From positions 1-38,022 of the forward strand of contig JAICQO010000067.1 of assembly GCA_025937835.1 (NCBI GenBank): a DNA stretch of 38,022 bases, in the 5' to 3' direction. The translations under genes and the position numbers were made by a program. Positions 1,898-16,692 of the stretch are shown piece after piece. Position 1 is the first letter of the stretch. Every line of letters begins with the position of its first letter. The notes under the pieces were generated by a model. The model made no database searches, was not told the origin of the DNA, and was given only the letters and a program-made list of their open reading frames with translations. Origin of the DNA: Polyangiaceae bacterium. GTDB taxonomy: Bacteria > Myxococcota_A > Polyangia > Polyangiales > Polyangiaceae.

Positions 1898-1900
1898 CCC

Positions 1901-1970
1901 CCCCCGACGGCCTTGACGACTTCTGTCGCCAAGGCGCCAGGAGACGCCAAGAGTCGCCAGGTTTTTGGGG
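1901..1970. repeat. Left inverted-repeat arm of GxxExxY cassette 1
   Basis: About 70 bases built from short related units (CGCCAAGG, CGCCAGG, ACGCCAAGAG, TCGCCAGG), ending in GGTTTTTGGGG. It is the reverse complement, with about seven substitutions and two small gaps, of 2416-2487 on the other side of the gene. The similarity extends outward to a CTAACCCC block at 1894 that contains the uppS stop codon. Confidence 0.85.
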
Positions 1971-2018
1971 GTTGCGGTGCGTGCGCAACCACGGCTTGGG
2001 GCGCGCCGAGAGGGGGGC

Positions 2019-2414
2019 ATGCTGCATGAACCGGGTGAGAGATTGGATCGGCTGGCTCGGGATGTGATCCGGGCGGCGTTGGAGGTCCACCGAAACCTCG
2101 GGCCTGGCTTTCCCGAAGGGGTCTACGAGCGCGCGCTGGCGCTCGAACTAGCGGAGCGGCGCGTTCCCTTCGAGCGACAGGTATCTCTGGCGGTGCAGTA
2201 CAAAGGGAAGTGCGTGGGCGAATGGCGTGCGGATTTGCTCGTCGGAGGCGCGCTCGTGGTCGAGCTCAAATCAGTGGAGCAACTCGCTGCGGTCCACGTG
2301 GCCCAGCTCGTTGCGTATCTGAAAGCAATCGACTGCCGCTTGGGACTACTCATCAACTTCGACGTCCCCCTGCTTCGTGATGGGATCCGCCGCGTCGTCC
2401 AATCGAGCCACTAA
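2019..2414 (+). CDS. GxxExxY protein (PD-(D/E)XK nuclease-like fold), cassette 1
   Basis: A 131-residue member of the GxxExxY family (PDDEXK_3). The name motif is present as GFPEGVY, preceded by AALEVHRNLGPG. The nuclease-fold core follows as RADLLVGGALVVELKSV, giving the D...ExK set, and the C-terminal part has QLVAYLKAIDCRLGLLINF. The ATG at 2019 follows AGGGGGGC, a plausible ribosome site; an in-frame GTG/ATG further upstream would lie closer to the repeat and lacks family similarity. The family's biological role is not established; nuclease activity is inferred from fold motifs only. The gene is bracketed by inverted repeats that begin within two bases of its stop. A distant paralogue lies at 16285-16692 on the other strand. 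Confidence 0.88.
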   Translation: MLHEPGERLDRLARDVIRAALEVHRNLGPGFPEGVYERALALELAERRVPFERQVSLAVQYKGKCVGEWRADLLVGGALVVELKSVEQLAAVHVAQLVAYLKAIDCRLGLLINFDVPLLRDGIRRVVQSSH

Positions 2415-2415
2415 A

Positions 2416-2487
2416 CCCCAGAAAAATCTGGCGGCTCTTGGCGTCCCCCTGGCGCCTTGGCGACAAAAGCCGTCAGGGCCGTTGGGG
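2416..2487. repeat. Right inverted-repeat arm of GxxExxY cassette 1
   Basis: Reverse complement of 1901-1970. It starts immediately after the GxxExxY stop codon. Beyond it an extra copy of the AGGGCCGTTGGGG unit occurs (about 2492-2504), ending in GGTTAG, which contains the TAA stop of the convergent lipoprotein gene. Confidence 0.85.
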
Positions 2488-2505
2488 AGGTAGGGCCGTT
2501 GGGGG

Positions 2506-16254: not shown

Positions 16255-16286
16255 GCAACAGGGAGACAGAGAGACAGGGAGTTTTC
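16255..16286. repeat. Left inverted-repeat arm of GxxExxY cassette 2
   Basis: 32 bases of GGGAGACA-type 8-bp units, starting GCAACAGGGAGACAG and ending GGGAGTTTTC. It is the reverse complement of 16658-16690 with one substitution and one single-base gap. It abuts the gene's stop codon at 16285-16287. Confidence 0.92.
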
Positions 16287-16692
16287 ATTTTCTGAGCGTT
16301 AGGCGGCGAAGCCCTCGTCGCAGAGGAGCTGCGTTGAAGTTGACCAAGAGGCCGGTACCGATGCCTGTCAGCTTCAGGTAGGTGAGGAGCTGCGCCTGGT
16401 GCAAGGGAAGCAGGGTCTCGACCGATTTGAGCTCGACTATGAGCTCGCTGCGCACGACGAAGTCCAATCGGTAGCCGCACTCGAGCGTCACGCCTCGATA
16501 CGCGATTGGTAATGGTCGTTCGCGCTCGTATTGCACACCGCGCGCCTCGAACTCGTACGCCAGGCAAACCGCGTACGCGGATTCGAGCAGTCCCGGTCCC
16601 AGTTCACGGTGCACGGCAATGCACGCGGCGATGACCTCACCCGAGCAACCCCCCAAAGAAAACCTCCCTGTCTCCCTGTCTCCCTGTTGCAT
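16285..16692 (-). CDS. GxxExxY protein, cassette 2
   Basis: A 135-residue GxxExxY family member, paralogue of the gene at 2019. The name motif is GLLESAY, preceded by CIAVHRELGPG. The nuclease-fold core is YRLDFVVRSELIVELKSVE (D...ExK), then QAQLLTYLKLTGIGTGLLVN. The longest start, ATG 16692, puts about 11 residues translated from the inverted repeat (MQQGDRETGRF) at the N-terminus; a TTG at 16656, just inside the arm, would remove them. Function is unestablished for the family. Both this gene and cassette 1 run from one repeat arm into the other with no transposase. Confidence 0.87.
   Translation of the reverse strand: MQQGDRETGRFSLGGCSGEVIAACIAVHRELGPGLLESAYAVCLAYEFEARGVQYERERPLPIAYRGVTLECGYRLDFVVRSELIVELKSVETLLPLHQAQLLTYLKLTGIGTGLLVNFNAAPLRRGLRRLTLRK
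16658..16690. repeat. Right inverted-repeat arm of GxxExxY cassette 2
   Basis: 33 bases complementary to 16255-16286. In the gene's direction it reads three GGGAGACA-type units ending in GGTTTTC and then TTTGGGGGG. It lies inside the 5' end of the open frame, so it may be part of the translated or leader region. Confidence 0.92.

Follow-up and report, generated by a model that had tools for sequence, protein, structure and literature searches.

The window analyzed here, a stretch of 38,022 nucleotides (positions 1 to 38,022 of contig JAICQO010000067.1 of a Polyangiaceae bacterium), contains two genes of the GxxExxY/PDDEXK_3 family, and a third, truncated where a contig stops, is present elsewhere in the same genome. 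GxxExxY proteins occur in many bacterial phyla and in some archaea and, to our knowledge, have no assigned function. The gene of cassette 2 is an ORF of the minus strand (16285-16692, 135 aa as listed), which matches TIGR04256 (GxxExxY) with 140 bits (cut-off 35) and PF13366 (PDDEXK_3) with 136 bits (cut-off 22); the GxxExxY profile match covers 16303-16644 on the minus strand, and its product has the catalytic residues E, D, ExK and QxxxY. A repeat search of the window identified two inverted arms around this gene, of 36 nt each, 89% complementary and separated by 364 nt: a 5' arm (16655-16690, minus strand; GCAACAGGGAGACAGGGAGACAGGGAGGTTTTCTTT on the gene strand) and a 3' arm that is its inverted copy (16255-16290, plus strand), whose inner end overlaps the stop codon at 16285-16287. 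Each arm is composed of three tandem units (CAGGGAG three times in the 5' arm; CAGGGAG-CAGAGAG-CAGGGAG in the other), and the pair has a local score of 27, compared with a maximum of 17 among 2,000 dinucleotide shuffles. The inverted arms, their tandem-unit composition and the contact of one of them with the stop codon, all claimed in an earlier note on this DNA, are thus borne out; the GG(A)TTTT sequence followed by a run of G, which the same note had ascribed to the gene-side end of both arms, is clear only in the 5' arm (GGGAGGTTTTCTTTGGGGGG), the 3' arm ending in GGGAGTTTTCATTTTCTGA.

Cassette 1 has the same design. Its gene (1965-2414, plus strand, as the ORF is listed, with an in-frame ATG further in; TIGR04256, 136.5 bits; PF13366, 135.4 bits; GxxExxY profile match at 2049-2396, plus strand) is flanked by a 5' arm with four CGCCARG units (1899-1973, plus strand) and by a 3' arm, an inverted copy with three CGCCARG units that begins at the stop codon (2414-2490, minus strand). 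This arm pair, of approximately 75 nt, is stronger than that of cassette 2. The arm sequences of the two cassettes had been described as unrelated, a wording that is too strong, since CGCCAAG and CGCCAGG on one side and CAGGGAG on the other are all instances of a single degenerate pattern, CRSVRRG, repeated every 8-11 nt.

The listed start of the cassette 2 gene (16692) falls within the 5' arm. A TTG codon at 16656-16654, located directly after GGGAGGTTTTCT, seems to be the likelier start and would give a product of approximately 123 aa, and the final GGGAGG of the 5' arm may act as a ribosome-binding site ahead of it. The transcript of cassette 2 is predicted to fold into a single long arm-to-arm stem (z -6.2). 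A search of the window against Rfam gave no match at the gathering score, and a known structured RNA family was rejected on this basis.

The residues expected at the active site are nearly invariant among the 138 family members analyzed (Glu21 in 136, Asp61 in all 138, Glu71 and Lys73 in 135, Gln85 and Tyr89 in 133). GxxE, D, ExK and QxxxY together form the active-site pattern of the RecB/Cas4 nuclease group. A structure model of GxxExxY (pLDDT 95) has as its top fold match in VIA-align the Cas4-like protein SSO0001 (4ic1, Z 9.2), ahead of Hjc and XisH, which score near 6; a Foldseek search with the same model returned nothing below E 0.001. As modelled, fold and motifs therefore place GxxExxY among the PD-(D/E)XK nucleases of the RecB/Cas4-like type, and it is this similarity that favours DNA as the substrate, perhaps in single-stranded or structured form.

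We investigated the generality of the arms in 144 distinct full-length GxxExxY genes, 138 of which had enough flanking sequence to be analyzed. These were collected from the genome of the window, its genus, family and phylum, from two viral contigs and from 80 loci of named bacteria and archaea, the last being the best 80 of more than 580 matches and so a non-random sample. Inverted arms within 250 nt of the gene were detected, at a score of 14, for 100 of the 138 genes (72.5%), compared with eight of 414 control spans of equal size at the same loci (1.9%), in agreement with the expectation that most GxxExxY genes carry arms. True pairs of upstream and downstream flanks reached this score in 77% of the cases and a score of 20 in 51%, compared with 9% and 1.6%, respectively, for mismatched pairs; when flanks of 400 nt were considered, arms were present in 59 of 73 genes from named genomes and in 45 of 63 genes from the same phylum. 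The shuffles, the mismatched flank pairs and the control spans together rule out a chance origin of the arm repeats. The theme common to the arms is the degenerate unit CRSVRRG spaced by 8-11 nt: runs of at least three such units were observed beside 80 of the 138 genes and in none of 276 shuffled flanks, and they point inward in 127 flanks vs. outward in 33. The median distance of the arms is 24 nt to the start codon and 7 nt to the stop codon. Some deep branches of the GxxExxY family have other arm units. The deep-branching L078 (G201) and L076 (G129) have a pyrimidine-rich 5' side, CCTCCACGG and CTTTTCGCTC, with units quite different from the theme, and the arm units of L081 (G103), also deep-branching, resemble TCCTAAGGA and are likewise quite different.

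The arm unit was then compared with the protein tree, which is built from few columns and has many open forks. On this tree the unit requires 43 changes, compared with a mean of 60.5 for shuffled labels, and none of 500 shuffles was as low, as predicted if arm sequence tracks protein clade. The correlation persists within phylum, within GC strata, within the phylum of the window alone and within named genomes alone, and a Mantel test between genomes of different phyla gave r 0.27 (0.26 with GC removed; 0/300 permutations as high), by which GC bias and host relatedness were rejected as its source. The cassette 2 gene groups with L009, L011, L012 and L042, whose units are CAGGGAG and CGGGAAG, with one exception in L084 (CGCGGAG); the cassette 1 gene groups with L022, L021, L057, L027, L028, L020 and L049 (CGCCAAG, CGCCAGG and CGCAAGG). 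For these two clades, which were picked by eye, a G at the third position of the unit is present in all five cassette 2 relatives (xGG units) and in none of nine cassette 1 relatives (CGCCARG-like units; p 0.0005), and one other genome, G065, has genes of both kinds (L012, L021 and L027), each with matching arms. The earlier proposal that each GxxExxY lineage carries its own cognate repeat holds with respect to the correlation between unit and clade. Recognition by the protein is a possible reading of it: the pattern fits cognate recognition, but a gene and arms passed on together as a single unit would produce the same correlation.

Arms are also found away from any GxxExxY gene. The genome of the window has the cassette 1 arm pattern at 45 places and the cassette 2 pattern at eight, counts that include the cassettes' own arms, and the reversed patterns used as controls gave none in either case; arms are absent from six of seven sister genomes, with a maximum of two places in any one. 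The gene-free arms of this genome occur as single arms, as short tandem arrays and as inward pairs, the latter often mixed, with one arm of the cassette 1 type and one of the cassette 2 type (C34, C44 and C205). Mixed inward pairs are located at L194 (995-1138 and 1212-1363), L196 (1133-1275, 1332-1467 and 1524-1667) and L209 (787-928), and some of these are tandem copies that resemble GI-GIII REP arrays. Outside this genome, gene-free copies take the shape of a two-arm hairpin with a short loop, which sometimes flanks the gene on both sides. Across the phylum (379 genomes), both strands carry repeated arms in 15 of 46 gene-bearing genomes and in three of 333 gene-free ones (p 1e-12), where repeated means at least two arms per strand, a threshold chosen post hoc; the pattern applied to the phylum was restricted to CRCVRAG at period 8, so that this count of arms is too low, also for the genome of the window. 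Arms were present in 41 of 50 named gene-bearing genomes, at 1705 places compared with 104 for the control pattern, and the highest count is an extreme expansion in G455 (L150, Verrucomicrobiales), with 453 exact three-unit matches in 3.0 Mb compared with 14 for the control. The dispersed units sometimes differ from the arms of the sampled gene (G456/L151 and G047/L009). Two genomes of one genus, G200 and G400, have many arms on both strands and no detectable GxxExxY gene, and a search for a gene remnant in both found none that was convincing; gene loss could explain their arms, and so could another mover.

The distribution of the gene itself is patchy, with GxxExxY present in three of eight members of the genus, 15 of 60 of the family and 46 of 379 genomes of the phylum, and phyla are intermixed on the tree, although many of its forks are open. 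A viral or plasmid origin was rejected, the records comprising no phages, eight plasmids and two IMG/VR contigs. One recent duplicate within a single genome (L050/L082) is 95% identical over approximately 580 nt; it stops almost precisely where one arm has its outer end, and it runs approximately 90 nt past its left arm. Cassettes are located directly downstream of carA in five genomes, with flanks conserved on both sides, in Alphaproteobacteria (L098, L109, L140 and L156) and in Deferrisomatales (L157), and the nearest GxxExxY relatives of L109 and L157 are at other loci, L157 having also a different arm unit; such comparisons point to repeated insertion or replacement at this site, a possible insertion hotspot. 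Other cassettes keep their locus between related species (L102/L150, L112/L122 and L088/L119). In G104, broken GxxExxY fragments at several loci (L264 and L266-L273) are decayed copies of a once-multicopy gene. Comparison of G126 with G216, two species of one genus, gave no clean empty site: at one of the sites the difference, of 853 nt, holds other sequence in addition to the hairpin, and synteny is lost at gene ends at the remaining sites; at L226/L248, L234/L244 and L239/L250 synteny tends to end near arm clusters, where rearrangement via arm repeats is possible. No target-site duplication was found in these comparisons or in L050/L082, and a search of sister species for an unoccupied cassette 2 locus showed partial conservation of the upstream synteny, with no glgP found beside it. 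Weighing the patchiness, the intermixed phyla, the duplicate and the reoccupied carA site against the lack of a clean empty site, we consider mobility of the GxxExxY cassette to be likely.

We hypothesize that the cassette belongs to a system of dispersed repeats of the REPIN/RAYT kind and is the copy that bears the enzyme, here a nuclease in place of a RAYT, a reading towards which we lean with some reserve. A small RecB/Cas4-like PD-(D/E)XK nuclease, encoded between inverted arms of lineage-specific 7-mer arrays, would recognize the unit of its own arms in DNA, most likely in an extruded or single-stranded hairpin, and would nick or trim it, so that arm-bounded segments could be copied or moved, the gene-bearing segment by its own product and gene-free segments in trans. 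More tentatively, and with rather less conviction, such cassettes may represent a new class of mobile or repeat-spreading element, whose sole protein is a small nuclease acting on its own arms and whose gene-free copies spread in trans. The arms could instead be dispersed repeats that some other enzyme mobilizes, such as a RAYT or a transposase encoded elsewhere, with GxxExxY being cargo or a host gene caught between copies. In many genomes there are indeed more gene-free arms than genes, arms occur in G200 and G400 with no detectable gene, and the REP/RAYT layout is very similar (Bertels and Rainey, 2011; PMC3116915). We nevertheless regard this passenger role as unlikely, given that the arms adjoin one gene family across many phyla and not spans of the same size at the same loci, follow gene presence between genomes and have units that follow the protein clade even across phyla.

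Regulation at the RNA level seems to us somewhat less probable still: the arms would pair in the transcript and hide the ribosome-binding site of the 5' arm, and the hairpin would be a target of the protein or of a host RNase, resulting in autoregulation or in protection from read-through. The predicted stem of cassette 2, the short median distances of arms to start and stop codons and the GGGAGG ahead of the TTG are consistent with such a role, but a regulator in cis has no need of gene-free arms dispersed on both strands, singly or in arrays, and the motifs are those of nucleases that act on DNA; fold-back repression can, besides, coexist with mobility. We give least credence to a domesticated or inert relic, inherited vertically, with arms diverging by tandem slippage and gene conversion and no present movement. 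It would accommodate the cassettes at conserved loci in related species and the decayed copies of G104, but not the patchy presence of the gene, the phyla intermixed on a partly open tree, the near-identical L050/L082 duplicate, the hundreds of arms in some genomes or the conserved catalytic residues.

The association of GxxExxY with flanking and dispersed cognate repeats gives this family a testable job, and it provides a widespread class of intergenic repeats with a candidate enzyme. Recognition is directly testable, as the units are clade-specific. If the proposed system is real, it would suggest that repeat-enzyme pairs of the REPIN/RAYT type have more than one origin and that their enzymes are unrelated; many intergenic repeats of the CTCTGTGTCTCTGTGG type in environmental bacteria would be explained by a new element class.

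Among known systems, the RecB/Cas4 nucleases (SSO0001, Hjc and XisH) share with GxxExxY the core fold and the E...D...ExK...QxxxY motifs, whereas GxxExxY is a stand-alone core of approximately 115 residues, encoded in a cassette without helicase or Cas partners and tied to dispersed repeats. By score, the cassette genes are members of TIGR04256 and PF13366; the published papers found on these families include neither arms nor dispersed copies, and literature searches on GxxExxY, PF13366, TIGR04256 and the arm sequences, in which subscription journals were sparsely covered, retrieved nothing relevant. The cassettes resemble insertion sequences with MITE derivatives in having a gene between terminal inverted arms and short gene-free versions elsewhere, but they have no known transposase, their sole protein being a nuclease of approximately 125 aa, their arm units are not constant even in a single family of elements, and no target duplication or clean empty site was found in G126/G216 or L050/L082. 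REP sequences and REPINs, with their RAYTs, occur as dispersed extragenic singlets, inverted-doublet hairpins and tandem arrays, with repeat types that pair with the enzyme gene by group and with arrays (GI-GIII) in which two types of repeat are mixed (Bertels and Rainey, 2011; PMC3116915). GxxExxY arms are, in the same way, scattered singly, in inverted doublets and in tandem arrays, with a group-specific pairing of repeat and enzyme, and the mixed arrays of cassette 1 and cassette 2 types parallel those of GI-GIII. Unlike REPIN/RAYT, where the enzyme is an HUH Y1 transposase and the repeats are palindromes, the only gene of the cassette is a PDDEXK_3 of the PD-(D/E)XK nuclease type and the arms consist of a purine-rich 7-mer repeated in tandem. 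The GxxExxY system is outside the REPIN/RAYT family, though it would work like it, and the cassette design together with the gene-free repeats suggests a small system, mobile or repeat-spreading, of a kind so far undescribed.
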